Assembly (NCBI RefSeq): GCF_003946045.1
Contig: NZ_RHNW01000003.1
Span: forward strand, 1-64,000
Direction of reading: 5' to 3'
Length of the DNA stretch: 64,000 nucleotides
Source of the DNA: Levilactobacillus mulengensis
GTDB lineage: Bacteria; Bacillota; Bacilli; Lactobacillales; Lactobacillaceae
The translations under genes were made by a program, and so were the position numbers. The notes under the pieces are model-generated. The model was not told the DNA's origin. It made no database searches and was given only the letters and a program-made list of their open reading frames with translations. Shown piece by piece: positions 25,671-51,324 of this stretch. Positions within the stretch are counted from its first letter, which is position 1; each line of letters opens with the position of its first letter.

Positions 25671-25832
25671 GGTTGGTGAAAATAAGGCGGGACGCTGTGG
25701 GCGAACGCCGGGAGCCAAGAATCGGTCTCCGGGCTTACTTTGAGCCGCTGGGGAGCGCGTCTCAAAGCTATCAGTTCTCTAAGCGGTAAACCGCTAAGAT
25801 AACTCCCACGGCTGACCTTATTTTCACCAACC
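25671..25832. repeat. Dispersed structured repeat, copy 1
   Basis: The 162-bp element is closed by a perfect 17-bp inverted repeat (GGTTGGTGAAAATAAGG with CCTTATTTTCACCAACC). Inside are smaller hairpins, including CTTTGAG..CTCAAAG, GGGAGCC..GGTCTCC and AGCGGTAAACCGCT. Related copies lie at 38947 and 51038. It carries no gene. Confidence 0.7.
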
Positions 25833-25892
25833 CTGCGGCTCACACTGGTTGAGACCGCTACGCAATAAGTTGGCAACCGTCTACTATTAATT

Positions 25893-25990
25893 AAAATCAG
25901 GTGGGACGCTGCCCGTTCCCACCTTGATCTGCCTCTGGTCGCTCTTATAGGTTGGTGTATTTTCACTACACACTGGTTATGACCATTCCA
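25893..25990. repeat. Dispersed repeat, partial or diverged copy
   Basis: A shorter relative directly after copy 1. It shares GTGGGACGCTG, has its own hairpin (ATCAGGTGGGA..TCCCACCTTGAT), and ends with a TTGATCTGCCTCTGGTCGCT segment that also ends the copy at 38947. The tail CACACTGGTT..AATAAGTTGG matches the tail of copy 1. Confidence 0.5.
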
Positions 25991-26025
25991 TAATAAGTTG
26001 GTCATCTTTTATTACCATTTAGCAT

Positions 26026-26064
26026 AGCACCACAGTCACTAACATTTAGGGCTGTGGTGCTTGT
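26026..26064. terminator. Hairpin, possible terminator
   Basis: AGCACCACAG pairs with CTGTGGTGCT, followed by TGTTG. The T run is weak. Confidence 0.45.
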
Positions 26065-26177
26065 TGCGTCAAGGATAGAGTATCCCGTAGAATTCCTAGA
26101 ACTCGGCCAATGTTGGTAACCGGTGTGCCTAAGAATTAGTGAAAGGTCATTTATTTTGAAAAAGTTCACCATTTTCC

Positions 26178-26208
26178 TTGCCTTAAAGTGCACATCAAGG
26201 GGTAACCT
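26178..26208 (+). promoter_or_regulatory. MerR-type promoter with 19-bp spacer
   Basis: TTGCCT (26178-26183) and TAACCT (26203-26208) are 19 bp apart, the over-long spacing that MerR activators correct. The preceding context ATTTTCCTTGCCTT is repeated at the promoter of the flavodoxin gene (27789). Confidence 0.6.
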
Positions 26209-26283
26209 AGGGTCATTCAGTTGTGAGTCACTAAGTTGCCAAGCAGATCGAACGCTGCTTGGCTCAGACAAAGGAGTCTTAAT

Positions 26284-26352
26284 ATGCGTAAAAAAGTTAT
26301 GATTTTAGCCGCTAACGGGCAAATCGCCCGGCTATTAAGCCGAAGGAGCTAA
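26284..26352 (+). pseudogene. Truncated NAD(P)-binding SDR, 22 codons
   Basis: After an AAAGGAG site the frame reads MRKKVMILAANGQIARLL and then SRRS and a stop. The first part is the dinucleotide-binding start of an atypical short-chain dehydrogenase (G-x-x-G-x-I-A). The remaining 190 or so residues are gone, apparently by a deletion joining it to the MerR leader. The promoter upstream is intact, so it now serves as a leader for merR. Confidence 0.65.
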
Positions 26353-26358
26353 AATAAC

Positions 26359-26796
26359 ATGAACATTAAAGAAGCCAGTGAAAAAACGGGGGTCTCCTCC
26401 GCAGCCATTCGTTACTACGAAAAGGAATCCCTGATTCCCGCCATTGATCGGACGCCGGTGGGCAACCGGGATATTGACGACCGGATTATTCGGCGGATTC
26501 GCTTCGTGACGCAGATGTGAGCCGCGGGGATGAGCATTGAAAATCTCCGTCGTTACATTCAATTATTTGATGCGCAAGAAGATAACGCCAAGGAACAAAA
26601 GGCGCTCTTACAGGAACAACTAGGAGTCATGGAAGAAAAGCGCGACGACCTCCAAGCGGCCATCGACCACCTGAATTACAAGCTCAATCACTTCTATGAT
26701 CACATGGAATCTACCGAGGAAGAATTGCGGGCATTGGAGCGTGAGCATGCTGATAAGGTTGCCAAGCAAGATGATGGAAGCAACCGCAATTTTTAA
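26359..26796 (+). pseudogene. MerR-family regulator with in-frame TGA
   Basis: ATG 26359 after AAGGAG starts a classic MerR protein (KEASEKTGVSSAAIRYYEKE, then a wing). TGA at 26518-26520 interrupts at codon 54, where the family usually has an arginine (CGA to TGA is one change). The frame continues cleanly through AAGMSIENLRRYIQLF, a long dimerisation coiled coil and a normal C-terminus to 26796. Relatives (AdhR/NmlR type) activate genes against aldehydes and electrophiles. The 3' part has possible restart sites but would lack the DNA-binding helix. Confidence 0.8.
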
Positions 26797-26881
26797 ATGA
26801 TCAGTAGATGGCGCGGTTAGTAAGGTTCTCCGAGAGAGTGAAGGCTTCATTAACTTGTACAGTTTCTACTGAGCATTTATC

Positions 26882-26920
26882 TTGTGTTTATAGGGGCCTC
26901 CGTATATACTAAGATATACG
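26882..26920 (+). promoter_or_regulatory. mazEF promoter and operator
   Basis: TTGTGT (26882-26887), 17 bp and TATACT (26905-26910). The inverted repeat CGTATAT-ACTAAG-ATATACG (26901-26920) covers the -10, a natural place for autorepression by the antitoxin. Confidence 0.7.
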
Positions 26921-26936
26921 AAAGGGGCGCTGAAAA

Positions 26937-27215
26937 ATGATGAAAAGTAAGACAGATGAACATGTTATTGGCGAATATGAAACCAGAAAGATAGGCCACT
27001 CATTGGTTTTGACGGTGCCTAAAAAGGCTGGCATAGCCGAGAAAGAAAAATATCTGCTAGTAAAAAAGGATGACGGCTCTTTAGAGTATCGGCCAGTACA
27101 AACCAATCCTTGGCACAATGGGGATTATGATGATATTGATTTTGAAAAGATTAATCAAGAACTTGGAAGTATTGATAATGGATCACCGGTTGGCAAGGAG
27201 AATGTTGAATGGTGA
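26937..27215 (+). CDS. mazE: MazE/PemI-type antitoxin (AbrB fold)
   Basis: The 92-residue protein has an N-terminal swapped-hairpin DNA-binding segment (TRKIGHSLVLTVPKKAGI, about residues 16-33) and an acidic, flexible C-terminus (DYDDIDFEKINQELG) that would wrap around the toxin. It overlaps mazF by 7 bp. Its promoter contains a perfect-arm inverted repeat. The pair is clearly more AT-rich than its neighbours, which suggests acquisition. Confidence 0.85.
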   Translation: MMKSKTDEHVIGEYETRKIGHSLVLTVPKKAGIAEKEKYLLVKKDDGSLEYRPVQTNPWHNGDYDDIDFEKINQELGSIDNGSPVGKENVEW

Positions 27216-27565
27216 CCTTAAAGCAAGGTGACATTGTTTTTATTGATGCGGAACCGCATGCAGGACACGAAGAGGGTGGACATGATCCACAGCGAGGAAA
27301 TATTCGTCGGCCACTGGTTGTGTTATCAAATGATGCTTATAATAGCCGGACTAAGATGATTGTTGGGATGCCTATTACCTCTAAAATAATTAATAATCGG
27401 CGGATATTTTTACCAATTGCTGATCAAGGTAGTGGTGTTAAGGGATCTGTCATTACTTACATGATTCCGAATTACGATTATGTAGCTAGACATGCGGAAG
27501 TTGTTGGTAAGGTTAAGCCCAATATATTAAGCGAGCTACTTAGGCGAGCGCAGAATATATTCTGA
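27209..27565 (+). CDS. mazF: MazF/PemK-type endoribonuclease toxin
   Basis: The 118-residue protein has the complete PemK fold: start KQGDIVFIDAEPHAGHEEGG, the RRPLVVLSND strand with the conserved Arg, MIVGMPITSK, the loop between strands and DQGSGVKGSVITYMIPNYD. Such toxins cut single-stranded mRNA at short motifs when the antitoxin is degraded. Translation is coupled to mazE by overlap. Confidence 0.92.
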   Translation: MVTLKQGDIVFIDAEPHAGHEEGGHDPQRGNIRRPLVVLSNDAYNSRTKMIVGMPITSKIINNRRIFLPIADQGSGVKGSVITYMIPNYDYVARHAEVVGKVKPNILSELLRRAQNIF

Positions 27566-27637
27566 GTTTATGACTTTGTGTAAGAGTGGTTAGTAGATCT
27601 CAATGATAGCTAATCTGATTTTTGATGAGTAGAAATT

Positions 27638-27670
27638 AAGGTGTCTGGGACAAGTCCCAGGCCTTTTTTC
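27638..27670 (+). terminator. Intrinsic terminator after mazEF
   Basis: CTGGGAC-AA-GTCCCAG with AAGG/CCTT extension and a T run. Confidence 0.8.
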
Positions 27671-27788
27671 TATCTGAGTTTATGACTGAGATATTTGTTA
27701 AAAGACAGCAGTTTGCTTGAAATGTCTGTCACTTACTTTTCAGAAAAGGTTACTTTAAAGTGGGTTCAAAAAGATTCGGAAATTTTCC

Positions 27789-27819
27789 TTGCCTTCAAGT
27801 AACTGTAAGGTCGTATCCT
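27789..27819 (+). promoter_or_regulatory. MerR-type promoter of the flavodoxin gene
   Basis: TTGCCT (27789-27794) and TATCCT (27814-27819) are separated by 19 bp, and the upstream context ATTTTCCTTGCCTT is the same as at 26178. The two promoters probably answer to one MerR regulator, the natural candidate being the now interrupted gene at 26359. Confidence 0.6.
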
Positions 27820-27853
27820 AGAGATAACAAATTAGCAAAAAGGGGATTTTAGT

Positions 27854-28330
27854 ATGGCCACAAAAGTGTTGATCGTTGATTATTCATGGTCCGGGAATAC
27901 CGCTAAGCTAGCAACGGCATTGCAACGAGTGACGGGTGCGACGCAGGTTGAGCTGACCGTTCCAGCCGGGACCTTTCCTCAGGATATGTACGCGACTTCA
28001 GATGTGGCGAATCAGCAACTTGCCAGCGGGGACTTGCCGGAATTAACCAGCAAACTGCCCGACCTCGCGGAGTTTGACACGATTCTGGTTGGCGGTCCCG
28101 TTTGGTCGGGCAAGGTGGCCACGCCAGTCCGCAGCTTGTTGCGGCAACTCGCCACCTATACTGGCACGCTGGCCCCGTTTTACACGGACGCCGGGACACC
28201 GGACGATTATGAAGCCGACTTCGCCAGTCTAGCCCCACAAGCAAACGTGGTCCCCGGTCTCGGCCTGACCGCGGGTGACTTGGCCACGGCGGACCAGCCG
28301 TTGACGACCTGGTGGGATAGCTTTAAGTAG
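27854..28330 (+). CDS. Flavodoxin-like protein
   Basis: The 158-residue protein has the flavodoxin FMN loop near its start (VDYSWSGNTAKLATAL, with S-x-S-G-N-T), then ILVGGPVWSGKVATPVRSLL, a typical second flavin-contact region. It probably carries electrons or reduces small substrates. Its MerR-type promoter suggests a role in stress from electrophiles. The next gene, a zinc dehydrogenase, follows in the same direction after 60 bp without a terminator, so they may form one transcript. Confidence 0.85.
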   Translation: MATKVLIVDYSWSGNTAKLATALQRVTGATQVELTVPAGTFPQDMYATSDVANQQLASGDLPELTSKLPDLAEFDTILVGGPVWSGKVATPVRSLLRQLATYTGTLAPFYTDAGTPDDYEADFASLAPQANVVPGLGLTAGDLATADQPLTTWWDSFK

Positions 28331-28390
28331 CTGAAGGTAACTGAAAAGGGTAAACTAATCACAGTTAGAAAAATATTGGAGGATGACCCA

Positions 28391-29434
28391 ATGAAAACAG
28401 CAGTCTTCGTTGAACCGGGCAAAGTAGAAGTCCAAGAATTACCCAAGCCAACCGTCAAGAATCCCACAGACGCCGTCTTGAAAATCGTGCGTGCCTGTGT
28501 CTGTGGTTCCGACCTCTGGTGGTACCGCGGCATTAACGACCGCCAAAAGAATACGCCAGTCGGCCATGAAGCCATTGGTATCGTGGAAACGGTTGGGAGC
28601 GACGTCACCAACGTCCAGCCCGGTGACTTTGTCATTGCACCGTTCACCCACGGTTGTGGCCATTGTGCGGCTTGTTTAGCCGGCTTCGATGGTGACTGTG
28701 AAAATGCCCGGACCGACGATGAAGTCGTGGGCTACCAGGGTGAATACTTACGGTTTAAGAACGCTGACTGGGCCTTGGTCAAGGTTCCGGGTCAGCCCAG
28801 TGATTACTCCGACGCCCAACTGAACGACCTATTAACGCTGGCCGATGTCATGGTGACCGGCTACCACGCCGCTGCGACCGCCGAAGTCAAAGACGGCGAC
28901 ACGGTTGTCGTGATGGGCGACGGTGCCGTGGGCTTGTGTGGTGTGATTGCGGCTAAATTACGGGGCGCCAAGCGCATCATCGCCATGAGTCGGCACGCCG
29001 ACCGTCAAGCCTTAGCCACGGAATTTGGCGCGACTGATATCGTTGCCGAACGGGGCGATGACGCGGTTAAACGTGTGATGGACCTGACCGATGGCGCCGG
29101 GGCTGACGCCGTGCTCGAATGTGTTGGGACGACACAATCCGTTGAAACGGCGGTGAAGGTTGCCCGTGCCGGGGCCGTGGTGGGCCGCGTCGGGGTTCCT
29201 CAGAAAGCTGAAATGAACACCAACAACTTATTCTGGAAGAACATCGGCCTGCGCGGCGGGATTGCTTCCGTCACGACTTACGACCGAGCTGTCTTGCTGG
29301 ACGCCGTTTTGAAAGGTGAGATCCACCCAGGGAAGGTCTTCACGAAGCGCTTTGACCTCGATCACGTGGCCGATGCCTATGCCGCTATGGATAAGCGGGA
29401 AGCCATTAAATCATTGTTAGTGATTAGTGAGTAA
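28391..29434 (+). CDS. Zinc-binding alcohol dehydrogenase
   Basis: ATG 28391 follows TTGGAGG; a longer frame from 28376 is unlikely. The 347-residue medium-chain dehydrogenase has catalytic zinc ligands CGSD (about residue 38) and GHEAIG (about 61), a structural zinc set of the form C-G-H-C-A-A-C, and a Rossmann motif VMGDGAVGLCGV (near 178). It oxidises or reduces alcohols/aldehydes with NAD(P). It probably forms an operon with the flavodoxin, under a MerR-type promoter like that of aldehyde-responsive adh genes. Confidence 0.9.
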   Translation: MKTAVFVEPGKVEVQELPKPTVKNPTDAVLKIVRACVCGSDLWWYRGINDRQKNTPVGHEAIGIVETVGSDVTNVQPGDFVIAPFTHGCGHCAACLAGFDGDCENARTDDEVVGYQGEYLRFKNADWALVKVPGQPSDYSDAQLNDLLTLADVMVTGYHAAATAEVKDGDTVVVMGDGAVGLCGVIAAKLRGAKRIIAMSRHADRQALATEFGATDIVAERGDDAVKRVMDLTDGAGADAVLECVGTTQSVETAVKVARAGAVVGRVGVPQKAEMNTNNLFWKNIGLRGGIASVTTYDRAVLLDAVLKGEIHPGKVFTKRFDLDHVADAYAAMDKREAIKSLLVISE

Positions 29435-29470
29435 TGATTATAGATGTTAAGGCCATCAGAGGAGAAAATC

Positions 29471-29737
29471 ATGAAAATTGATGATTTGATTCAAGAGGAG
29501 TTGAAAGACCCTGAATTTGCTGCAGCCTACCGCGATGAGGGCGAGCTCTTGGATACAGCAATGGCACTCTATCATGCCAGAGAATCAGCGGGGTTAACAC
29601 AGGCTGAACTTGCAGAGCGTGCGGCAACAACTCAGGCAACCATTGCGCGGATTGAGCGAGGAGATAATGTTTCCTTTGTTAAGTATGCCCAGATTGCGCA
29701 TGCCTTAGGTAAGCGTTTGAAAGTTAGTTTTGAGTAA
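29471..29737 (+). CDS. HigA-type XRE antitoxin, no toxin beside it
   Basis: ATG 29471 follows AGAGGAG. The 88-residue protein has an N-terminal helical part (LIQEELKDPEFAAAYRDEGE) and an XRE helix-turn-helix (LTQAELAERAATTQATIARI, about residues 42-61), the layout of HigA-2 antitoxins. A RelE/HigB toxin would normally precede it, but the upstream gene is a dehydrogenase. It is therefore an orphan or a stand-alone regulator. Confidence 0.8.
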   Translation: MKIDDLIQEELKDPEFAAAYRDEGELLDTAMALYHARESAGLTQAELAERAATTQATIARIERGDNVSFVKYAQIAHALGKRLKVSFE

Positions 29738-29802
29738 AACATTTTGAAACTTACGAATTGGCTTATAGTAATTGATTCTTAATTATTAATAACTGTATTA
29801 TT

Positions 29803-29836
29803 AAAAGGCACACATCAGTTAGATGTGTGTCTTTTT
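29803..29836. terminator. Bidirectional terminator
   Basis: AAAAGGCACACATC pairs with GATGTGTGTCTTTTT; genes converge here. Confidence 0.8.
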
Positions 29837-29845
29837 GCAAGCTAG

Positions 29846-31654
29846 TTATTTAATCAAAATCAAACCCTTAGTTCCCCGTGAAGCCGCCACGTACCGGCGA
29901 TTGTCGCCGAGTGGATCGTCCGTATAGAAGGGTGCCGTCCAGTCGGTGACCACGGCGAAGTCAAATTCTAAGCCCTTGGCCACGGTCAACGGCATAACGT
30001 TGATGCCCGGGCGAACAGTTCGCGTGCCGTCACCCGTAAGCAGTTGGGCGGCCGGTAATTGCGCAGCGAGTTCGCTTGCCCGCTGCGTCGAGGGTGTCAG
30101 GATACCAATGCTCTGGCCGGCAGTCGTTGGCAGGGTCGCAAGCACGTTTGTCAAATCAACATTTTCTAAGACTTGCGGCGCCGTGCCCGCGGTCTGGACC
30201 GCCTGAATCGTGGTTCGCCAATCACCCGCAAACTGTGCGAAGAACCGCGTGATCTCGCCGGTTGCACGGTAGCTGGTGGTGAGGTGGCGCACCGCCGTTT
30301 GGGCCGGGTCAAAGTAGTCGGCAATCGTGACGGCTTGGCCCGTGAGCCGTTGGCGGTGGTCGCCCACGATGGTGAGGTCGGCGTTGTGGTAGAGGGCCGT
30401 CAGAAATAGCCAGGTATCGGCGGCGTAGTCCTGGGCCTCGTCCACGAAGAGCGCCGCGGTGGTGGTTTGTTGGAAGTTGGTGAAGCGAATCAGGAGGTAG
30501 AGTTGGTCATAGGGGGTCAGTTCGGCTAATCCCAGTTCCTGCGCAAATGCTGGCCAGTCGAGCCACTCGTTGATGTCTTCCGGCACGCGGTCGACGGCCT
30601 GTAGCCAGCGCCAGGCCCGCTGCATGCGGGACAAGAGCGCCGTGCGGTCGTTGGATTGCGCGTACGCCGCTGGGGCTAGACCGGTTGGCGTTTGGACCAA
30701 GGGTTCTTGAATGATTTGTGCCAATTCAGCGAGGTGGTTGCCGGCCGTCGTTGGGACGGTCAGCCCAAACCGTCGACCCCAGGATTGGACCAAATGTAGG
30801 TAGGTGGTGCTCAACGGTTCGGCCTCACCTAACGCCGGCAACACGCCGCGAATGTAGCGGCTGAAGGCGACGTTGGGGGTCAGAATCAGGATATCTTCCG
30901 GCGTCCAGCTATCGCGATGGCGGTACAGCTGGTAGGCTACGCGTTGTAAGAGCACGGACGTCTTGCCACTGCCGGCAACGCCGTCGACTAGGACGGTGGG
31001 CTGGCTACTTTCACGGATGATGGCGTTTTGTTCCTGTTGAATGGTGGCCGTGATTTCCTGCAGGCCACCGCTGCGATTACTGGCGAGCACGTCTAGTAAC
31101 AGCGGGTCGCCGATGGCCGCGTTGGTGTCGATGACCTGTTGGAGTTGGTCGTGGTCGATGATAAATTGTTGGCGCTGCGTCACCGTCACGGGAATGGTGC
31201 GCCCATTCGCTTGATAGCTGGTCGCCCCGGTCCGGTTGGCGTAGTACGCGTCAGCCACGGGGGCCCGCCAATCGTAGATCAAGTCGTTGGTATTTTCATC
31301 GGTGTAGCCGACCTTGCCGAGATAGAGGGCCTCCGCATCGCCGTCGCCAAAGTCGAGTTGCAGCTTGGCAAAGTAGGCCTGAGGCAAGAGTAATTGCGCG
31401 TGGGCCAAACGGGTGACGGCCGTATCGTGGCGGGCGTTCAGGGCATCAATTTGCCGGTTGCCGGCCTCGATACTGGCAAAGGTCTCCAGTTGATCACTGA
31501 AGGTCCCCAGGTCGAGATGGCCTTCGCCATTGAGTTGTTGCTTCATGGCGCGGGCCGTGGCGGTCAGTTCGGCCAATTGCTGGGTGAGTCGCTGACTGTC
31601 GGTCGTTAATCGTTGGTAAATCTCCTGTAGATGGTGAGCCTCTGATTGTGCCAT
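29846..31654 (-). CDS. helD: HelD-like UvrD/Rep-family helicase
   Basis: The 602-residue protein has an N-terminal coiled-coil arm (about residues 1-70), a nucleotide module with Walker A VDGVAGSGKTSVLLQR (about 221-236), Walker B LFVDEAQDYA (about 405), and C-terminal helicase motifs TVAKGLEFDFAVVTDW and YVAASRGTKGLIL. HelD binds RNA polymerase and frees it from stalled or inactive complexes. B. subtilis HelD is near 770 residues, so this version is compact. ATG 31654 follows GGAGGTG. Confidence 0.85.
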   Translation of the reverse strand: MAQSEAHHLQEIYQRLTTDSQRLTQQLAELTATARAMKQQLNGEGHLDLGTFSDQLETFASIEAGNRQIDALNARHDTAVTRLAHAQLLLPQAYFAKLQLDFGDGDAEALYLGKVGYTDENTNDLIYDWRAPVADAYYANRTGATSYQANGRTIPVTVTQRQQFIIDHDQLQQVIDTNAAIGDPLLLDVLASNRSGGLQEITATIQQEQNAIIRESSQPTVLVDGVAGSGKTSVLLQRVAYQLYRHRDSWTPEDILILTPNVAFSRYIRGVLPALGEAEPLSTTYLHLVQSWGRRFGLTVPTTAGNHLAELAQIIQEPLVQTPTGLAPAAYAQSNDRTALLSRMQRAWRWLQAVDRVPEDINEWLDWPAFAQELGLAELTPYDQLYLLIRFTNFQQTTTAALFVDEAQDYAADTWLFLTALYHNADLTIVGDHRQRLTGQAVTIADYFDPAQTAVRHLTTSYRATGEITRFFAQFAGDWRTTIQAVQTAGTAPQVLENVDLTNVLATLPTTAGQSIGILTPSTQRASELAAQLPAAQLLTGDGTRTVRPGINVMPLTVAKGLEFDFAVVTDWTAPFYTDDPLGDNRRYVAASRGTKGLILIK

Positions 31655-31741
31655 CCAATCACCTCCGAGGCCTCTAGTTTACGCGCTTTGGCGGCAATGA
31701 CCAGTCTGTTTTTCGCGGGACGGCCATGGTATAATAGATGT

Positions 31742-31849: not shown

Positions 31850-31854
31850 AAGAA

Positions 31855-33127: not shown

Positions 33128-33185
33128 AAAAGGCGTGGCGTAGATTTATCCTGAGTGTTCAGGTAAATTTACGCCACGTCTTTTT
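33128..33185. terminator. Bidirectional terminator
   Basis: A long imperfect stem (GGCGTGGCGTAGATTTA with TAAATTTACGCCACGTC) is flanked by A and T runs. Confidence 0.8.
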
Positions 33186-34257: not shown

Positions 34258-35511
34258 TTATAAAGCTACTAAACCTTTAGCTAGAATATTTTTAGCTGCA
34301 TTACGGTCGCGCACATGAAATGTCCCACAATTAGGGCACGTCCACTTGCGGTCAGCCAACGTCAACTTATTCTTGCCGACCATGATGTACCCACAGTGGC
34401 TACAAGTTTGCGTCGTATTTCGGGGATCAATCGTCAAAAATTTCCGGCCATATAGGTCAGCTTTGTAAGCCAACATGCCCAGTAAAGTTCGCCAACCAAC
34501 GTCCGAGATGCTCATTGCCAACGCGTGATTCCGCAACATATTTTTACTCCGCAGTTCTTCAGCTACAACTAAATCGTGGTTTTTGATCAAGGTCGTAGAG
34601 ACGTAGTGTAGGAAGTTTTTACGTTGATTGGTAACTTTGAGCTGTAACTTAGCTACTAGTAACCGTTGCTTTTGATAGTTCTTTGATTCTGATAACCGTC
34701 GTTGACTCTTTTTAGCTCGTCTGGCCCGTCGTGATAGTTTCCGCTGGGCTTTAGCCAGCTTTCCTTTAATCATCCGGTAATAGCGCGGATTATCAATCAC
34801 CTGTCCATTGGAATCTGTCAGGAAATTATCAAGATTCAAATCAATGCCGACTTTAGATTTGACGATTGGTTGTTTAGCAACAAAGGGGTGTTCTGACCCA
34901 ATCTGTAGGGACACAAAGTAATGATCTGCAGCGTCCATTGAAACTGTTGTCGTTCCAATTCTAATGTCATTAGCTTGGTCTAAAATCTTCGATGGAAGTC
35001 CCTTGAAACGGAGACGGCCTAGTTTGGGTAGCCATAGGTGGTGAGTGTCAGTTAGTCTAACGCTACCATTCTTCATAGTTGGAACTGTCACTTTGGCACT
35101 GTAAAGACAAGATGTTTGATAAGTCTGAGAATAACCACGTTTATGAAACTTAGGCGTTCCAGCCTGATGAACCTGGTAGAATAATTTCCAAGCTGTTTTG
35201 TAATTCTTGATGGCATTAGCCTTCATCAGACTGTCAAAGTCTGGATGGTTGAGCCAACCATGGATATTGGAGATAGCAGTTGATGGCTTTTTCAGCCGTT
35301 CAGTCAAGTCAGCAATCCGCTTCAAAACAAGCGTGATTGGTGTTTTAACTTTCTTCAACCAAAATAGGTCATTGTTCATCCCGTTCATTTCGTTATAAAT
35401 AAAGCGACTCGCATCACTGTTACGTTTGATCAGCCTTTTCTGTTCGGTTGAAGGAAAGACCCGGACCTTAACCCCATAATGATAAGGTAATTGTGCCATC
35501 GTCTTCGTCAT
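34258..35511 (-). CDS. tnpB: TnpB RNA-guided nuclease
   Basis: ATG 35511 follows AAAGGAGGTGG; the frame extends further but without support. The 417-residue protein has the RuvC parts in order: VGIDLNLDNFLTD (first Asp, about residue 180), VVAEELRSKNM (Glu, about 285) and RDRNAAKNIL (last Asp), with a zinc finger CSHCGY..CPNCG between the last two. TnpB uses an RNA from the element end to cut matching DNA and favours element retention. All catalytic residues appear intact. Confidence 0.93.
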   Translation of the reverse strand: MTKTMAQLPYHYGVKVRVFPSTEQKRLIKRNSDASRFIYNEMNGMNNDLFWLKKVKTPITLVLKRIADLTERLKKPSTAISNIHGWLNHPDFDSLMKANAIKNYKTAWKLFYQVHQAGTPKFHKRGYSQTYQTSCLYSAKVTVPTMKNGSVRLTDTHHLWLPKLGRLRFKGLPSKILDQANDIRIGTTTVSMDAADHYFVSLQIGSEHPFVAKQPIVKSKVGIDLNLDNFLTDSNGQVIDNPRYYRMIKGKLAKAQRKLSRRARRAKKSQRRLSESKNYQKQRLLVAKLQLKVTNQRKNFLHYVSTTLIKNHDLVVAEELRSKNMLRNHALAMSISDVGWRTLLGMLAYKADLYGRKFLTIDPRNTTQTCSHCGYIMVGKNKLTLADRKWTCPNCGTFHVRDRNAAKNILAKGLVAL

Positions 35512-35607
35512 AAATTGCCACCTCCTTTTGCTTGATAGTAAGCATATCATATGAGTATACTGTATCCATAGTAAGTTGTCTTATAATAATATTTATGGAG
35601 GGTGCAT

Positions 35608-36027
35608 ATGAGTAAAAGTGATGGCGGAGAAATCCACGAACGAGGCTATGTTTACAACTTTCATTTTCAATTGGCCTGGGTCACCAAATACCGACACGAA
35701 GCGTTTACAACGCCCAAGCTGGTCGCTGAAATGACCGACATTCTAACGAAGATAGCCCGACTGAACGAAGTGACAATTGAGCAAATGGAGGTAATGCCTG
35801 ATTATATCCACTTACTACTAAGCTTTAAGCCCAAGTACGCGCCAACCAATGTTGTCAAAGCCTTCAAGGGCGGCTCGGCTCGCCTATTCTTTGAACTACA
35901 TCCAGAGATAAAGGCTCAAAAATCCTGGGGTGGACATCTTTGGTCGGCTAGTTACTTCATGAGTACCCTGGGTGATATGAGCAAGACGACCGTAGAAAAT
36001 TATATTGCTAATCAGCGAAAGGCATAG
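35608..36027 (+). CDS. tnpA: TnpA Y1 transposase, IS200/IS605 family
   Basis: ATG 35608 follows GGAGGG. The 139-residue protein has the single-strand transposase fold, with the catalytic tyrosine in VENYIANQ near the C-terminus and the GGHLWSASYFMSTLG strand. The metal-binding His-x-His motif, usually PDHVHLL, reads PDYIHLLLS here, so the first histidine seems replaced by tyrosine. Whether this is normal for the subgroup or inactivating cannot be decided by eye. Confidence 0.9.
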   Translation: MSKSDGGEIHERGYVYNFHFQLAWVTKYRHEAFTTPKLVAEMTDILTKIARLNEVTIEQMEVMPDYIHLLLSFKPKYAPTNVVKAFKGGSARLFFELHPEIKAQKSWGGHLWSASYFMSTLGDMSKTTVENYIANQRKA

Positions 36028-38896: not shown

Positions 38897-38946
38897 AATG
38901 ATTTTTCCTCCAAATTTCAATTTGTTGGGTTAAACATGTCGCCTCC

Positions 38947-39170
38947 GGACCGGTGAAAACTGAGCCGGAACGCTGTGGTGTTCGTTCCCGACGGCGAATT
39001 CAAAGTGCCCTGCTGTGGGGCCGGTTCCAGCCTGAGAAGCGGGCTTCCGCCTCGACTTTGAGCCAAAAGGCGGTCTCAAAGGTCGTCCCGTGCTCTAGGC
39101 AGGTAAAGCTCCTGCCAAGACCACCGACACAGCTGGTCGCTTTGATTCGCCTCTGGTCACTAGGACAGTT
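38947..39170. repeat. Dispersed structured repeat, copy 2
   Basis: It begins GGACCGGTGAAAACTGAGCC, shares CCGGAACGCTGTGG, CCTGAGAAGCGG and the hairpin CTTTGAG..CTCAAAG with the other copies, and has GGCAGG..CCTGCC where copy 1 has AGCGGT..ACCGCT. The 3' end differs: it carries the TTTGATTCGCCTCTGGTCACT tail seen after copy 1 at 25920, then an extra hairpin (GGTCACTAGGAC..GTCCTGTGACC) to 39201. The rest of the mleS-mleR spacer holds no gene. Confidence 0.6.
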
Positions 39171-39426
39171 CTAGCTGATTGTCCCTAGTCCTGTGACCGA
39201 CAGGGGTTAACTCGTCAGTGTGTATTAGATGTTTGATGATTAGATGGCTAATTCATGATTGCTATCATGGATTGATTAACTAACGTTGCTGACATTAAAC
39301 GTTAATCACTGCTTCAACTTTACAAGTCCTACTATAGGTGGCCAGGCTAGTTATAGTCAAACATAGCAGTTGATATAAAAATAATTTATAATAGGTCTAC
39401 AAACGTTGATATTAGGGGGACTAAAT

Positions 39427-45354: not shown

Positions 45355-45366
45355 TGGCCAAATTAA

Positions 45367-45408
45367 AATCCCTAGGTAACGACGAATAATTGTCGTTACC
45401 TAGGGATT
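45367..45408. terminator. Perfect 17-bp hairpin, bidirectional terminator
   Basis: AATCCCTAGGTAACGAC and its exact complement flank an 8-nt loop, between convergent genes. Confidence 0.75.
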
Positions 45409-45424
45409 CTTTGGTTATTTTAAA

Positions 45425-46129
45425 TTAATCTTTCGGTCGAAAGGGCACCACATTATCACCCGCATCACCATTGTCAGGGTCGTCGGCCGACATGTCATCG
45501 AAGACCGACTGCATGAAATTGTCGAATTCAGCCGGCGTATCCGGCACGTCCTCCGCCGTGTACTCATCGGTCGCGAGCTTGGTAAATAACTGGTGGTGCC
45601 GGGCGTAGGCAAAGATATTGTGTAGCGCCTTGATGTCGGCGGGATAGGCGTAGAGCCCGAAGGTCAGGTTGGCCTCGTCGAGAAAATACTTGAAGTCGCG
45701 CTTGCCCATGGCCAGTTTGGTGGCCTGATAGGCATCGTTCATGATGATGCCCATCATGGTGTTTTTGAGTGTCAGGTAAACAACGTCCTCGTTGCCGGCC
45801 ACGTCGATTAGATCAGCGAACGCAATATCATGTGTTTCCCGCCGGCCCGTCCGCAGATTTTTACCGGAGAGGGTCACGTGGGTGGTCGCTGGTTTTTGCC
45901 GGGGGGCTGGGCTCTCCGGTGTCTGCTTGAGGGCCAGTGCCATGAATGCATGGAAGGCCTTGTCATCGGTCAGGTTGAGCTTGTCGCGCATCTCGTTGAT
46001 CAAGAGTCCCAGTGCGGTGCTGTAGGCAGCCGGATCCTTGAGGGTCTGCGTTGCCGCCGCGGCCTTGACCCAGGGCTCGCCGTCCGGACCGATACCTAAT
46101 GTGAAGAGTGGTGCACCTTCGTCGTCCAT
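45425..46129 (-). CDS. Hypothetical acidic protein (234 aa)
   Basis: ATG 46129 follows CGGGAGG; the frame extends upstream past the parS site but without a start signal. The product is soluble and acidic, with a C-terminal tail rich in Asp (SADDPDNGDAGDN) and ending VVPFRPKD. The middle contains VTLSGKNLRTGRRETHDIAF. No family is recognised. The Cad-family gene lies upstream in the same direction, about 95 bp away across parS. Confidence 0.75.
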   Translation of the reverse strand: MDDEGAPLFTLGIGPDGEPWVKAAAATQTLKDPAAYSTALGLLINEMRDKLNLTDDKAFHAFMALALKQTPESPAPRQKPATTHVTLSGKNLRTGRRETHDIAFADLIDVAGNEDVVYLTLKNTMMGIIMNDAYQATKLAMGKRDFKYFLDEANLTFGLYAYPADIKALHNIFAYARHHQLFTKLATDEYTAEDVPDTPAEFDNFMQSVFDDMSADDPDNGDAGDNVVPFRPKD

Positions 46130-46207
46130 GTTTTCCTCCCGTAAAAACGCATTTAGTCCCTCAATTATAACGTAATTGACCACAGCGGTGGGCCGTAACC
46201 GAAAAAA

Positions 46208-46223
46208 TGTTCCATGTGAAACA
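46208..46223. other. parS-like site, one mismatch
   Basis: TGTTCCATGTGAAACA has the parS arms and one central change (CATGTG for CACGTG). It is 2 bp from the end of the Cad-family gene. Confidence 0.7.
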
Positions 46224-46224
46224 T

Positions 46225-46794
46225 CTAAAGTAAAATGGCGAGGCCCACGCAAACGAACAGCAATGGCGACAACCAAGCTCCGAACCGCGCGAAGAAGTGA
46301 CTGGCGGCGGGCGACTGGGCAACGCGGTGACTGACAATCAGCCAGAGGCCAATCAGGGTCAGGAAAATAACCAGAACGCCACCAAACTCGGGATGGTCGA
46401 GCCGCGTAAAGTAGGGGATGTAGATGCTGAGGTTGTCGCCACCGTTACCAATCGTCAGCGACCAGACCAATGGCAGGCTGACCACGCGCGTTAAGGCTGG
46501 TGGCAAGCCGGTTGTGTGGCGCACGTGCCACCATCGCCACAGACCGGTGATCCCCAAAGTTAGGGGAACTAGCCCCAGCCAGCGGGTCCATTCGGCTAAG
46601 TTGTAGTGTAAGACCCCTCGGCTAGCTAGCCAGGCGACCAGAATCAGGGTGAGAATCCCTAGGTATTGGCCGAGAACAATGTGGTGGCGTTGTCGCGGTG
46701 TCTCTGCGGCCAACCACAGCAGGAGCAAGACGACCAGGTCGTCGGTGTCGGTAACCAAGAAGATACCAATGGCGGTTAAGGTGAAGACTAGCAT
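46225..46794 (-). CDS. Cadmium-resistance-family (CadD-like) membrane protein
   Basis: The 189-residue protein has five or six membrane segments and the motifs LVTDTDDLVVLLLLW (residues 13-27) and LTIGNGGDNLSIYIPYF, which characterise the CadD family. Members confer modest cadmium resistance in staphylococci; other substrates are possible. No CadC-type repressor is adjacent. ATG 46794 follows GAGGAG. Confidence 0.85.
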   Translation of the reverse strand: MLVFTLTAIGIFLVTDTDDLVVLLLLWLAAETPRQRHHIVLGQYLGILTLILVAWLASRGVLHYNLAEWTRWLGLVPLTLGITGLWRWWHVRHTTGLPPALTRVVSLPLVWSLTIGNGGDNLSIYIPYFTRLDHPEFGGVLVIFLTLIGLWLIVSHRVAQSPAASHFFARFGAWLSPLLFVCVGLAILL

Positions 46795-46974
46795 GATGGT
46801 GGGCTCCTCAGTGTTGTAGAATTAAGTCCATTGTACGCTTGATTGGTGTTAGAACAAATCCGTCTACAGTCAAAAGTAGTCAAACTAATAATCTCAATTG
46901 AATCCTACAAAAATTTAGACTGAATATAAATCTTGGTGTAGGCTCACGGCAATCAAACCGAAGAATGTGGAAAA

Positions 46975-48168
46975 ATGAAAGGAATCAAACGCTATGTGGG
47001 TACCCTAAAAAAGTACAAACCATTACTCGGATATATCACCCTGTTTTATCTCGTTATGGGGATTTCCAAGTACACCCAAATCTTGTATTTTCAGCAGAAT
47101 GGACGATTGATGAATTTCTCTTTAGCGTATTCAGCGATGGCAGTTGCCGGCTCATTGTCATTCCTAGTAGCTAATTTGCTTGAAAAGGTGGCCCTAAGAA
47201 AAGTTGCTAATACTTTAGGACTTGTCTACGCGGTTGGTATGTTCCTAAGAGTGTTCTTTCAAAGTCGGGTAGTAGCAATCATCTCAGGAAGTCTTTCCGG
47301 AGTCGGTGCTGCGATTTTAATTTTAGTTATTAGACGGTGGCTATATTTGGAAGCGGATAGAAATTCCCAGGATAGGCAATTTCTCATTTCATCTCGGTAC
47401 ACGTTAATGCAGATAGCGTCACTATTGGCGACGTTAATGACGGGATTGATTTTATTTGCTATTTCAGCAAGTAACAGAGTCTACGTCATTATTTTGATTG
47501 CTTCGGCGCTCGGGATTATTTTGTTGCCAACGGGCTCAGTTCCTAGTGATGAAATTAAGATTGAGAAACGGTCACGAGCTATCACGTTACCAGATAATCG
47601 GGTACGTGGATTATTGTATTTAGGTGTTGTTATTTTTATGGGTATAGCAACGTCACTTGTTGACCCCATAGCGCCAGCAATTTTGAGGTCAGTCGGTTAT
47701 AGTGTTGCGTCTGTGAGTCTTACGATGGCAATTTTAGGCATAGTGGCCATGTTATCAGCCTTTTTATTCCAATTGCCAGTGTTTAATAGACGTCCAGATA
47801 ATTATTTTTGGCTGATTGAATCGGTTTCGGGAATAATTATTATCTTCTGCGGATTGATGAAACGGAACCAAGCCATTTGGACAATGGTCGCTTTTGGCGT
47901 GATGGCCGTTGAGGGAACCGGCTTTTTTATTTTGAAGGAGTTAATCGAGTACGAGATGTTTCCTAAAAATGAGCTAGTTCTTTACTTAGGATTGGCTCAG
48001 TCAGGATTCTTGATTGGGGATGCAATTGGGGCACCACTGGGAACAACCCTCTTTCAGCTTACTAATAGTCGCGTTTTGTTGGTTGTTTACGGGACTATGA
48101 TTATGCTCTGTGGTTTTTTGTACAAAACGTTGTCTAGAAGTTTTAGACGAGATAGGTGTTTCAGATGA
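46975..48168 (+). CDS. MFS-type transporter, low G+C
   Basis: The 397-residue protein has about twelve membrane segments with a polar central loop (SVPSDEIKIEKRSRAI, near residue 185), consistent with a major facilitator. It lacks the usual loop 2-3 signature, so the assignment is by topology. Base composition and codon use are visibly AT-richer than the genes on either side, suggesting transfer. The ribosome binding site is weak. Substrate unknown. Confidence 0.7.
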   Translation: MKGIKRYVGTLKKYKPLLGYITLFYLVMGISKYTQILYFQQNGRLMNFSLAYSAMAVAGSLSFLVANLLEKVALRKVANTLGLVYAVGMFLRVFFQSRVVAIISGSLSGVGAAILILVIRRWLYLEADRNSQDRQFLISSRYTLMQIASLLATLMTGLILFAISASNRVYVIILIASALGIILLPTGSVPSDEIKIEKRSRAITLPDNRVRGLLYLGVVIFMGIATSLVDPIAPAILRSVGYSVASVSLTMAILGIVAMLSAFLFQLPVFNRRPDNYFWLIESVSGIIIIFCGLMKRNQAIWTMVAFGVMAVEGTGFFILKELIEYEMFPKNELVLYLGLAQSGFLIGDAIGAPLGTTLFQLTNSRVLLVVYGTMIMLCGFLYKTLSRSFRRDRCFR

Positions 48169-48204
48169 AAAGTTGCGTTGAGAGCTAAAAGATTAGAAAA
48201 TCAA

Positions 48205-48244
48205 AAAATCCGCTCAATCCCAATCAGGATGTGAGCGGATTTTA
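48205..48244. terminator. Bidirectional terminator
   Basis: AAAATCCGCTCA pairs with TGAGCGGATTTTA between convergent genes. Confidence 0.75.
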
Positions 48245-48259
48245 TTAAATAATCATAAT

Positions 48260-48769
48260 TTAATCAGCCGGAGCGGGTTGGTTCTTGAACACAAGCTTCT
48301 TAGATAGGAAGAAGTTCAAAACCAAAGCGATCGCGTGGCCGATGACCTTGGTCATGGTCCCGTTGGTGTTCAACCAAGAAATCCCCAAGAACAGGATGAC
48401 GGTTTCCAACAGGAACGTGGCGATTCGGGTCATGTAGAACGTGCCCATTTCCCGCATTGGCTTGTCGGACTTGTGCTTGAAGACAAATGTCCGGTCTAAC
48501 CAGAAGGAGCATTGGACACTGATCAGCCAGTCGATGAAGTTGGCTAATTGATAGCCGATGCCCATCGTGTGGTAGAACAGGTAAAACAGGGTGATGTTGA
48601 TGACAACAGAGATAGCCCCAAATAACAGGTAACGAGCGGCTTGGCCTTGGACCTTGTCCTCAACTTGTTTGAGTTGCGCAGCGTATTCGTTTTCCGTTTC
48701 GGTTAACTCAGCTTCGTACTCTTCTTGCGAGGCCGGGTAGTGATCGTGACGTAAGGGTTGACTTTCCAT
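48260..48769 (-). CDS. GtrA-family membrane protein
   Basis: ATG 48769 is preceded by AAAGG; an in-frame GTG at 48799 is possible. The 169-residue protein has an acidic coiled-coil N-terminus (about 1-45, EYEAELTETENEYAAQL) and four membrane segments with RYLLFGAISVVINITLFYLF, the GtrA signature. GtrA proteins are thought to flip lipid-linked sugars for decoration of cell-surface polymers. An inverted repeat GTTTCAC..GTGAAAC lies just upstream (48793-48814). Confidence 0.85.
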   Translation of the reverse strand: MESQPLRHDHYPASQEEYEAELTETENEYAAQLKQVEDKVQGQAARYLLFGAISVVINITLFYLFYHTMGIGYQLANFIDWLISVQCSFWLDRTFVFKHKSDKPMREMGTFYMTRIATFLLETVILFLGISWLNTNGTMTKVIGHAIALVLNFFLSKKLVFKNQPAPAD

Positions 48770-48932
48770 AGATTCCGGAACCTTTCTGTGACGTTTCACT
48801 TAGCTGGGTGAAACCGTCGTGAAAATCCCCTGGTCCCACCTGAGTTATGAAAACGTGTAATTGTAGTTACTAGCTCAATTATACCGTATTTGGCCGGCAC
48901 TGCAATGGTAATACCCTAGCAATTTCAAATGG

Positions 48933-50573
48933 TTAATCAGTGACGTAGGCGTGTTGATAATCGGGACTCCCGTTGAACTTGTTGTAAACGACCCCCTTGA
49001 TCTTGGGATTGACCAGCGTGTTGGTCCGCGCTTCGTAAAGTGGGGTCACGGCTTGGTCACGCAGGGCGGTCCGCGCGGCCGTTAACAGGTCTTGGTACCG
49101 GGCAGTTTGGTTCAGCGCGTCGACACCTTCGGACTTGGTCAGTGCCTGATCATAGGTCTTGTTGTCGTAGTGGCCCATGTTGGAGTTGTTCGTCGAGGAT
49201 AGAATCTGCAGGGATTGAATCGGGTCGGCGTTGTCCATGCTCCAGCCGGTCAGGTTGAGCTCGAAGTTCCCCTTGGAAACGTTGCTCAGCATGGAGGGAA
49301 ATGGCATCGCGGACACGTTGACCTTGAGGCCCAGCGTGCTGCTGACCGTGCTCTGGATGAATTCAGCGACGTTCTTGGTGGTGTCGTCATCGCCGCAGGT
49401 AATCGTGACGGTCAACTGTTGCTTGCCCAACTGCTTCAGCGCCTTTTGGTAAAGCTGCTTGGCCAAGGTTGGATTGTAATCGGCGGTGTTCTTCACGTAG
49501 GCGTCGGTGGTAAAGTCCTTCCCCGTCTTGGCGTTGGTCATCATGTGGTGAATGGCAAACGTTTTGGCTGGTCGTGAGCCGTTCTTCAAGACCTTGTCCG
49601 CGAGTTGTTGGCGGTTGATGGCCAGGGAAATGGCACGCCGCAGGTTCTGGTTAGCGGCAATCTTGTTCTGTTCATTGTATTGAATGAAGCCGATACGGCC
49701 AGCGGCCAACGACTTCAAGTCCGGATTGTGTTTGTTTTGCGTGGTTTGTTCCCCGTCGAGGGTGACCGCATCCAGTCGCTTGGACTGGTACAGGTTGTAG
49801 GCCGTCGAGCTGGTCTTAATGACCTGATATTTGATGCTGCTGAGCTTAACGGTCTTAGCAGCGACGTAGGTTGGGTTCTTCTTTAAGTTCCAGCTGTCAC
49901 TGGTCCCGTTCCAGTTCTTCAGGACGAAGGGCCCGTTGTAAACGGTCGTGGCCGCGGATGAGCCGTATGTCTTCCCGTACTTCTGGACGGCCTTTTGGTT
50001 CAGGGGATAGTAGGTGGTGCTAGCCAGCATCTGCTTGAAGTAGGATGCCGGCCGGCTGAGGGTGATCTTCAGTTGGTACTGACCCACGGCCTTAACGCCC
50101 AACGTTGCGGGGGATTTCTTCCCGGCCGCGATGGCACTGGCATTTTTGATATTCGCAAATTGATAGGTGAACTCTGACTTAGACTTGGGATCTAGCGTCC
50201 GCTTCCAGGAGTAAACGAAGTCCTGAGCCGTGACCGGGTCGCCGTTGCTCCATTTGGCGTTGTGCCGCAAGTTAATGGTGTAATGGTGGCCGCTATCACT
50301 GACGGTCGTCTTGGTTGCCAGCGCATTTTGCGCCTCGCTGTTGGCGTTCAGGCGGTACAGGCCTTCGCCAACTTGGCTGAGCGTGTTGCTGGAGACGCTG
50401 TCGGTGATCTTGGCAACGTCGAGACTGGAAATCGTGGCCGTTTCGTACAGGTTCAGGTGTTGCGCGACCTTCTTAGTGGACTGCGAGTGACCGGTCACGG
50501 CGAAGACGCCGGCGCCGATTAGAATAATGCCGCCGCAAAGGGCGAGTGCTTTCTTGTGTTGTGCTAAACTCAT
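48933..50573 (-). CDS. Oligopeptide-binding protein (OppA-like)
   Basis: The 546-residue extracytoplasmic solute-binding protein (family 5) captures peptides for an ABC importer. Domain landmarks are LNLYETATISSLD, YSWKRTLDPKSKSEF and NLTGWSMDNADPIQSLQIL. The N-terminus has a membrane helix (ALALCGGIILIGAGVFAV) whose cysteine context does not fit the usual lipobox, so anchoring may be by an uncleaved helix. No permease or ATPase genes are adjacent, so it probably supplies a distant Opp complex. A T-box leader controls it. Confidence 0.92.
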   Translation of the reverse strand: MSLAQHKKALALCGGIILIGAGVFAVTGHSQSTKKVAQHLNLYETATISSLDVAKITDSVSSNTLSQVGEGLYRLNANSEAQNALATKTTVSDSGHHYTINLRHNAKWSNGDPVTAQDFVYSWKRTLDPKSKSEFTYQFANIKNASAIAAGKKSPATLGVKAVGQYQLKITLSRPASYFKQMLASTTYYPLNQKAVQKYGKTYGSSAATTVYNGPFVLKNWNGTSDSWNLKKNPTYVAAKTVKLSSIKYQVIKTSSTAYNLYQSKRLDAVTLDGEQTTQNKHNPDLKSLAAGRIGFIQYNEQNKIAANQNLRRAISLAINRQQLADKVLKNGSRPAKTFAIHHMMTNAKTGKDFTTDAYVKNTADYNPTLAKQLYQKALKQLGKQQLTVTITCGDDDTTKNVAEFIQSTVSSTLGLKVNVSAMPFPSMLSNVSKGNFELNLTGWSMDNADPIQSLQILSSTNNSNMGHYDNKTYDQALTKSEGVDALNQTARYQDLLTAARTALRDQAVTPLYEARTNTLVNPKIKGVVYNKFNGSPDYQHAYVTD

Positions 50574-50671
50574 AATTTTTTCCTCCAGAATGATTGAATT
50601 TATCGGTTAGAAAGAATAATGAGCGTTGCCATCGTTTGAGCATAGGTGAATCCCCCTCGGAAAAAGTGTAG

Positions 50672-50965
50672 ACAAAAAACCGTCCTCAACAGCCAATGTG
50701 TTAAGGACGGTTTTAACCGCGGTGCCACCTTAATTAGACGGGTCCCGAAAAAGAGACCGCGCCCCTCTTCACAGGAAACTAACATTTCCCTGACAACTGA
50801 CGTATGTCGCACGTCTTCCCGTACTGCAAAATGGTTCGGGGAAGCCCTCGGTGGTCCATTTAACTACCTGCGTTCGGCCGTACTCTCAGCAACGACGGCT
50901 CTCTTGACGTGCACGATAATCTTGATCTCCACCTCAATGGTTTGTTTCGGACGATTTATTGAATT
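50672..50965 (-). promoter_or_regulatory. T-box riboswitch, probably tRNA-Trp responsive
   Basis: The promoter is TTGACA (51000-50995), 17 bp, TACACT (50977-50972). The leader has the Stem I signatures AGAGAGCC and GCTGAGAGT, the T-box AAGGTGGCACCGCGG (50731-50717), and a terminator (AACCGTCC.., 50678-50711) with six T residues. Pairing GGTGG with CCACC and GATTATC with GGTAGTT leaves a specifier loop containing AAATGGA. TGG followed by A reads Trp. The T-box bulge TGGC expects a tRNA with G at position 73, which fits Trp and argues against Met (ATG). Confidence 0.85.
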
Positions 50966-51037
50966 GAGGCTAGTGTACCCCCGGGAAAAGGTGGTGTCAA
51001 CCGGTAATTTTTAATTGGCGAGCTGCGGCGCCTTACC

Positions 51038-51207
51038 GGGCGGTCAAAATAGGCCGGAACGCTAGGGAAGGACGGTAAAAGCCTGAGGAGCGGTCTTTTA
51101 CCTCGCTTTGAACCGCCTAAACCGCGTTTCAAAGTCGCCATTTACGGGTGTTCCTTGCTATGCCACCCCACCAGTAAATCCCCTGGCTGAGCCTATTTTG
51201 ACCGCCC
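51038..51207. repeat. Dispersed structured repeat, copy 3
   Basis: The 170-bp element is closed by a perfect 17-bp inverted repeat (GGGCGGTCAAAATAGGC with GCCTATTTTGACCGCCC). Internal hairpins include GGTAAAAG..CTTTTACC and CTTTGAA..TTCAAAG. Stem bases differ from copy 1 but pairing is kept. The tail CGGCTCATACTAGTT (51211-51225) matches CGGCTCACACTGGTT after copy 1. Confidence 0.7.
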
Positions 51208-51324
51208 TCACGGCTCATACTAGTTTGGTTCCCGGTTGTCCCCACTTATTTCTGGTGACACTCTGTGTGAGTAGCTGATTTTTGATAGATAATAATCAGA
51301 GATGTAGATATTTGTTATTAATAG

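Follow-up and report, generated by a model that had tools for sequence, protein, structure and literature searches.

The window, a stretch of 64,000 nucleotides from Levilactobacillus mulengensis, carries three intergenic copies of a branched repeat, all on the + strand, together with what looks like the remnant of a further element in tandem with the first. We found copy 1 to be a whole type A element at 25640..25850 (outer limits approximate) which, by alignment of the genome's own copies, comprises a 5′ end with GCCTCC, the core and the 3′ tail TGCGGCTCACACTGGTT. Its terminal stem P1 pairs 25670..25687 with 25816..25833 over 18 perfect base pairs, as supported alike by sequence, fold and model alignment, while sequence and consensus structure define P2 (GCTGTGGG at 25694..25701 with CCCACGGC at 25805..25812), hairpin P4 (CTTTGAG ... 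CTCAAAG, 25738..25767) and hairpin P5 (CTAAGCGG ... CCGCTAAG, 25773..25804), which features an A.A mismatch. Copy 3, a diverged type A element at 51018..51226 (outer limits approximate; 118.4 bits for 51037-51208), has P1 arms at 51038..51054 and 51191..51207 that pair perfectly over 17 bp by sequence and fold. Model R1, built from 31 sequences with copies 1 and 3 both among them, gives E 1.9e-34 for the core of copy 1 and E 4e-23 for copy 3. The sequence-only reading had placed these two copies correctly, and the change in the internal hairpin (CTTTGAG/CTCAAAG against CTTTGAA/TTCAAAG), the conserved GGnACGCT core and the CGGCTCAYACTRGTT tail were all recovered as it described them; the perfect 17-bp stem of differing bases that it gave to both holds for copy 3, copy 1 having 18 bp instead. 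Its third copy, at 38947-39170, does belong to the family, but as a degenerate element of a different core type, B, spanning 38923..39215 by alignment and R2 (outer limits approximate), for whose terminal stem no 3′ arm was found; the B core (39010..39133) scores 136.4 bits, E 1.5e-30, with model R2, whose training set includes copy 2. Against dinucleotide shuffles, the fold z-scores are -6.9 for copy 1, -4.3 for copy 3 and -3.5 for copy 2. What had been proposed as a partial copy at 25893 (about 25890..25983) seems, by eye and by comparison with L. lanxiensis, to be what is left of a second element in tandem, with B-like pieces: L. lanxiensis displays a second type A copy there (R1 128 bits, without the outermost stem), and L. 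wangkuiensis has one copy only at the copy 1 locus. Flank X (25851..25889), lying between copy 1 and this remnant, appears by eye to be locus-specific and in part the reverse complement of the upstream gene's end. A guide-like pairing of the two in a fixed 6:7 register was considered, since two copies looked regular, and dropped after a skip-pattern scan over 128 copies detected no such signal.

Copies 1 and 3 represent core type A, with a core of ~164 nt, and copy 2 represents core type B; the two types have common ends, and the elements measure ~210-300 bp, with stems that are hypervariable yet perfect. Searches with R1 and R2 recovered at least 150 matches to each type in the own genome, i.e., at least 300 in one genome of 3.1 Mb, and because 150 of 150 scored candidates from it match R1, the repeats are not a product of chance. 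Among 27 exact 5′ ends left unmatched, each of the 23 read by eye is either A or B or a form that is deleted or degenerate, and of the remaining four, three coincide with R2 matches and one lies at a contig end. Of 301 Lactobacillaceae genomes, 72, the own genome among them, have type A relatives, in 10 of 40 genera. Between distinct A slots of the own genome, similarity reaches 98.2% at most, and therefore no very recent burst is seen. Carriage by plasmids or phages was rejected, as copy 1 has no match on either. The stem-loop sequence families of PMC2267715 are likewise repeated sequences with a conserved stem-loop; the relevant passage of that paper names L. johnsonii as its sole lactobacillus, and the A/B family is not there. 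As the literature searched held no published description of the A/B family, this very abundant intergenic hairpin family of lactobacilli is apparently undescribed.

Two-sided changes occur in 58 of 60 pairs, with a covariation score of 0.68 against 0.16 in shuffles, and covariation exceeds both shuffled and slid controls. With covariation this strong and hundreds of copies, the condition that had been named as refuting the observation clearly fails. One source of such changes would be a structured RNA whose fold is selected (a 3′-UTR stabilizer, a terminator-like element or a trans-acting ncRNA), which would be consistent with the multi-branched architecture with conserved loops and bulges, the purine-rich loops of the + strand and the codirectional gene that precedes 111 of 187 single copies. 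P2 is indeed RNA-like, alternating between G-U and G-C on the + strand (62 G-U against 7 A-C). Against this, a gene of opposite direction precedes the other 76 of the 187, and the element lacks an Rfam match: there are 0 gathering matches in the window, and permissive scans of the copy 1 stretch and ten other-species loci gave only matches that lay off the element or scored far below gathering, except for one true tRNA beside an element, on which grounds the named RNA families were rejected. Further, the stems other than P2 do not tolerate G-U above A-C in the manner of RNA. Counts of G-U against A-C are 10 to 19 in P1 and 42 to 45 in the de novo fold, unlike the control, RNase P RNA of the same bacterial family, with 167 to 4 (42 to 1) and variable pairs that are 11.8% G-U and 0.3% A-C (Fisher p 8e-16 for P1 and 2e-21 for the de novo fold). 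Levilactobacillus stems favor A-C over G-U (265 against 117 cells), a strand asymmetry that simple two-strand correction does not explain. Across 73 pairs of orthologous cores, single-side differences (53 G-U, 72 A-C, 42 other) do not favor G-U, and 84 double differences lead from one Watson-Crick pair to another. Pairs can swap four ways with hardly any intermediate (e.g., one P5 pair in alignment A3: GC 36, CG 36, AT 25, TA 22, and G-U or A-C 6). Over the whole model structure, alignment A4 holds 151 G-U and 53 A-C cells, the G-U excess sitting in P2 and two adjoining columns that read as internal loop (60 G-U), and the 50 G-U against 11 A-C of type B come mostly from two pairs. RNAalifold energies are -67.3 (+) and -62.4 (-) for A4 and -90.6 (+) and -90.8 (-) for A1; neither a purely plus-strand nor a purely minus-strand RNA was adopted, as the signals are mixed. 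Coordinated change in the stems thus seems to take place at the level of DNA and not of RNA, and therefore the compensatory changes alone are no proof of an RNA gene. Of the three options originally offered, the RNA fold is weakened by the missing G-U preference outside P2, which RNase P shows so strongly, and the alternative of a DNA fold or of a miniature mobile element with structured ends fits better; we regard selection on an RNA fold as rather unlikely. In this family, compensatory covariation seems to have become near-perfect without the wobble tolerance typical of RNA, which bears on the use of covariation as proof of functional RNA.

Our best reading is a single high-copy, family-wide, non-coding DNA-hairpin repeat of the Lactobacillaceae, comprising A and B with their common ends and non-autonomous in nature, to which we give a probability of roughly 55%. 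Because stems outside P2 show no wobble preference, pairing is likely kept mainly at the DNA level: template switching may correct the arms, a DNA hairpin may be under selection, or the two may act together. Template switching during replication may copy one arm from the other, and selection may act alongside it on a folded DNA strand bearing specific unpaired bases. The bulged T is kept in 31 of 31 rows of A1, 126 of 129 of A2 and 124 of 125 of A3. The A.A mismatch is present in 30 of 31 A1 rows and 38 of 40 B rows; among rows from other species and genera, 42 of 50 keep it, and 6 of the 50 have an A-T or T-A pair in its columns. This conservation of unpaired bases argues for recognition of the folded strand. 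In integron attC sites, it is a folded DNA strand that recombines, extrahelical bases matter, and structure is conserved as stem sequence varies; the A/B elements likewise conserve structure while their stem sequence varies. Tentatively, this could be extended to folded-DNA elements of a new class: a conserved, branched single-stranded hairpin with obligatory unpaired bases that a recombinase of the Lactobacillaceae would read, its hypervariable stems rewritten slot by slot through template switching and its cores exchanged like cassettes, though we consider this version doubtful. If it is true, Lactobacillaceae genomes would be a natural record of template-switch mutation, and would caution that arm correction at the DNA level can pass for RNA structure in covariation tests.

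As described in PMC8794818, template switching can create perfect stems and multibase compensatory changes; the hairpins maintained there share these traits with ours, but lie in RNA genes, in contrast to a dispersed repeat in which most stems lack wobble preference. This published mechanism, the multi-state pair swaps without wobble and outer flank arms that change roughly as expected without constraint would also suit large, functionless quasi-palindromes made perfect by template-switch mutation alone. We consider such neutral relics quite unlikely, since correction acting alone ought to have brought the bulged T and the A.A mismatch into pairs more often, yet both persist inside otherwise perfect stems and the mismatch does so across other species and genera. 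The outer flanks are often inverted copies of one another, 34 of 262 copies exceeding the 99th percentile set by mismatched flanks (Mann-Whitney p 8e-17), as could result if template switching left reverse-complement copies of neighboring sequence there; in the A4 set, 2 of 48 exceed the cross 99th percentile, i.e., there is little inverted copying. Selection keeping the outer arms paired has little support (16 two-sided changes against 11.3 expected, 9 of the 16 compensatory; 30 of 93 usable ortholog pairs), and the idea that flank complementarity fades as the core diverges is not supported (Spearman 0.11, p 0.08). Outside the variable P1, other genera have conserved outer motifs (GCC-GCCT before and CGGCTA after, by eye), and inverted target duplication was therefore rejected as the origin of P1 and kept solely for the outer flanks of Levilactobacillus copies. 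Checked with R1 and R2, orthologous slots can be occupied by A or by B, depending on the species, and the copy 1 slot lacks an R1 or R2 match in three congeners sharing both neighboring genes. Under the DNA-hairpin reading, existing elements would change through recombination in the common ends, which exchanges cores, and through local tandem duplication. The many orthologous slots are places to measure template switching.

As a non-autonomous repeat, the element would rely on host or mobile-element activity. MITEs are miniature inverted-repeat transposable elements, which the A/B elements resemble in being short, non-coding and high in copy number, with conserved ends that contain imperfect inverted repeats (GGTTAAAC...GCCTCCGGG and CCCTGCGGCTGACACTGGTTTAACCC, own-copy alignment). 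They differ in their multi-stem cores, which vary within fixed slots. No autonomous partner turned up among the exact 5′ ends, nor any transposase or recombinase for the role in the own genome, and no target-site duplication was evident by eye in the own-copy alignment; the empty slots come only from distant congeners. REP/BIME sequences (GTAG and CGTC families; PMC3733652) are palindromes of 20-40 bp. The A/B elements share with them the high copy number, the intergenic position, mostly downstream of coding regions, and the frequent close spacing of oppositely oriented copies, but are larger and branched with hypervariable perfect stems, and no dedicated RAYT transposase was found. A BIME-like palindrome, selected as double-stranded or cruciform DNA for chromosome architecture or protein binding, would account for the numerous intergenic copies, the converging '><' arrangement in 24 of 31 multi-copy groups ('<>' in none) and the strand bias of 57 of 75 among the best-scoring copies. 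The P1 sequence varies freely across copies and genera, which makes a sequence-reading protein at P1 unlikely, and two of 34 congeners (G022 and G031) lack any match; we judge this explanation improbable. Five Y1 transposase matches correspond to five mutually similar 1.9-kb IS605-type copies, and the one in the window carries tnpA and tnpB (Pfam). The A/B end motifs are absent from all five loci, and mobilization by IS605 TnpA or RAYT was rejected on that account.

The dispersed structured repeat noticed from the sequence alone is real. Two of its window copies, 1 (25640..25850) and 3 (51018..51226; all limits approximate), have perfect terminal stems (P1) of 18 bp and 17 bp with differing letters, as judged by the sequence and by R1, our covariance model of the first core type (A), and the covarying internal hairpin, core and tail claimed for these two copies are likewise present. 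Copy 2 (38923..39215), which had been placed in the same family, is indeed a structured repeat, but the alignment of own-genome copies and R2, the model of a second core type (B) with the same ends, assign it to that type in degenerate form. The supposed partial copy at 25893 is probably what is left of a second element in tandem. RNA folding against dinucleotide shuffles gave z-scores of -6.9 for copy 1, -4.3 for copy 3 and -3.5 for copy 2.

A DNA search with copy 1 recovered at least 40 more near-full-length places at 75% identity or above and five fragments (40 of 190 candidates scored). R1 was built from alignment A1 (31 rows: copy 1, 29 further places from this search and copy 3), and R2 from 40 of the 117 B cores found, 65 of them from the own genome and 52 from relatives. 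Each model matched all 150 candidates scored in the own genome, which thus holds at least 150 matches to each. Both types share the ends 5′ GGTTAAAC...GCCTCCGGGNNGGTGAAAA and 3′ TTTTCnCCNNCCCTGCGGCTgACACTGGTTTAACCC, and an exact element pattern occurs at no fewer than 79 loci in Levilactobacillus lanxiensis, L. wangkuiensis, L. fuyuanensis, L. parabrevis and one metagenome bin. R1 matches were found in 32 of 34 same-genus relatives, in 72 of 301 genomes of a Lactobacillaceae draw (own genome included; 10 of 40 genera; E 1e-6 or better) and, weakly (E 8.8e-4), in one of 23 genomes of other families. Searches with copy 1 of plasmid and phage collections and of Rfam with the element returned zero matches, and at listing level the open-access literature on lactobacilli gave no recognizable description of the A/B family; L. 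johnsonii is named in a paper on stem-loop sequence families (PMC2267715), and REPs are described in another (PMC3733652).

The R1 consensus orders the element as P1 (~18 bp), an internal loop, an inner stem P2 (8 bp) and the hairpins P3, P4 and P5. Two-sided changes affect 22 of 60 pairs in A1 and 58 of 60 in A4, an alignment in which 40 loci from other species and genera contribute 53 rows. In A4, which was aligned to R1 and so leans towards the model, 94.4% of cells are paired against 63.1% in shuffles, with a covariation score of 0.680 against 0.164 (0.07-0.11 for slid structures). Three A4 rows proved to be antisense matches to copies present elsewhere in the set, and the 50 remaining rows were used for later counts unless stated. 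Core sequence motifs in A4 are frequent, not universal: of 50 rows, 36 carry the P3 motif, 29 a P5-like motif and 23 GTGGG, compared with 5, 40 and 34, respectively, of 250 shuffles.

If an RNA fold were under selection, G-U pairs should far outnumber A-C pairs, as they do in the RNase P RNA control (best 30 of 61 Lactobacillaceae genomes), with 167 G-U and 4 A-C among 1,413 cells in variable pairs. By contrast with this control, P1 of A4 has 10 G-U and 19 A-C among 891 cells (Fisher p 8e-16), and the de novo RNAalifold structure of A4 has 42 and 45 (p 2e-21). Counts in the variable pairs are 6 G-U and 10 A-C for A1, and 2 and 2 for B. Across A2 (129 rows, mainly relatives' loci) and A3 (125 rows, own loci), there are 117 G-U and 265 A-C cells on the + strand, excluding pairs with G-U as their commonest state; such cell counts are of sequences, not events, and a rough nearest-neighbor event count gives 136 G-U, consensus G-U columns included, against 220 A-C. 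The A-C excess in the Levilactobacillus stems corresponds to G-T pairs on the opposite strand. Contrary counts come from P2 of A4 (62 G-U, 7 A-C), from the complete model structure of A4 (151 and 53) and from all B pairs (50 and 11, mostly from two pairs); the A4 excess sits in P2 and in two adjacent columns (60 G-U), the latter read by us as internal loop. Overall, the RNA reading of the covariation is weakened and a DNA-hairpin repeat favored; the wobble test bears on what maintains arm pairing and is still compatible with an RNA role for the core. Template switching offers a route to making and maintaining perfect stems (PMC8794818). Certain unpaired letters are also conserved. P3 keeps a bulged T in all 31 A1 rows, in 126 of 129 A2 rows and in 124 of 125 A3 rows, with gaps in the remainder. 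P5 keeps an A.A mismatch in 30 of the 31 A1 rows, 38 of 40 B rows and 42 of 50 A4 rows; six A4 rows pair there, four as A-T and two as T-A. Since simple arm correction should remove these letters more often, their retention suggests that the folded strand is likely recognized to some extent.

When clustered by upstream flank, 510 end matches, to which a single element can contribute twice, fell into 126 groups, some joined through element sequence rather than locus. Among the groups listed, two clear cases, in which the flanks are orthologous and the stem ends match, hold different core types in the same slot: A in the own genome (L052, R1 183 bits) and B in L. wangkuiensis (L126, R2 137.5), and A in L. 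wangkuiensis (L092, R1 173.6) and B in L. lanxiensis (L115, R2 116.7). Among 73 pairs of A cores from the flank groups, we counted 84 double WC-to-WC differences, part of which imported cores could explain, and 167 single-side differences (53 G-U, 72 A-C, 42 other). At the slot of copy 1, the own genome and L. wangkuiensis have A, G010 has B (R2 86.5), G017 has an A-like element with a weak score (R1 48.5) and L. lanxiensis has two tandem A elements (L329; R1 176.7 and 128 bits), the second of which begins within P1, as if a short AAAATAAGG-like match had been the site of duplication. Stretches from the other eight of the 12 genomes gave zero R1 or R2 matches at E 0.01; both neighbor genes lie close together in three of these (G002, G030, G033), and different sequence follows the upstream gene in five (G020, G003, G027, G024, G016).

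Beyond the tail lies a locus-specific flank, X, often reverse-complementary to what precedes the element, in many cases the end of the neighboring gene. In the 262 of 279 copies with sufficient flank, the inverted match had a median of 19.75 against 17 for mismatched pairs (p 8e-17) and exceeded their 99th percentile in 34; direct-orientation matches showed a far weaker excess (p 0.008), and in the A4 set the inverted flank is rare (2 of 48). Between orthologs, X changes at 16.4% and the upstream arm at 5.6% of 1,241 paired sites, a roughly threefold difference in frequency, with 16 two-sided changes against 11.3 expected (30 of 93 ortholog pairs usable). We interpret X as an inverted copy produced by template switching and changing thereafter under little constraint.

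The own genome has five Y1 transposase matches, within five similar ~1.93-kb IS605-type copies (87.6-91.6% alike), all of which lack the A/B end motifs; the window copy (34258-36027) comprises tnpB (34258-35550, - strand; PF07282 and PF01385 in Pfam) and tnpA (35602-36027, + strand; PF01797). Of 87 distinct A slots in the own genome, the two most alike share 98.2% similarity. By eye, 23 of 27 exact 5′ ends without a nearby exact 3′ end were inspected, and each of these 23 is an A, a B or a deleted or degenerate version. Two B elements, L243 and L244, have an internal deletion and retain both ends and a short stem.

A codirectional gene precedes 111 of the 187 singly placed copies. For 114 copies with ORF-based gene calls, P1 begins at a median distance of 32 nt where the upstream gene is codirectional (counted from its stop; n = 65) and of 98 nt where it is opposed (counted from its start; n = 49), and the tail-side gene lies ~400 nt off (medians 418 for n = 58 and 408 for n = 54). 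Of the 31 multi-copy A groups, 24 are arranged '><' and '<>' occurs in none, and the + strand is on the G-rich strand for 57 of the 75 best-scoring own copies and 42 of the other 75. Between copy 1 and the following gene, a stem-loop AGCACCACAG ... CTGTGGTGCT at 26026-26061 resembles a terminator, and a similar motif, by eye, also lies after the element in both L. wangkuiensis and L. lanxiensis. Plain hairpins at 33132-33180, 21925-21965 and 45366-45409, with weak R1 scores on both strands, are probably terminators.
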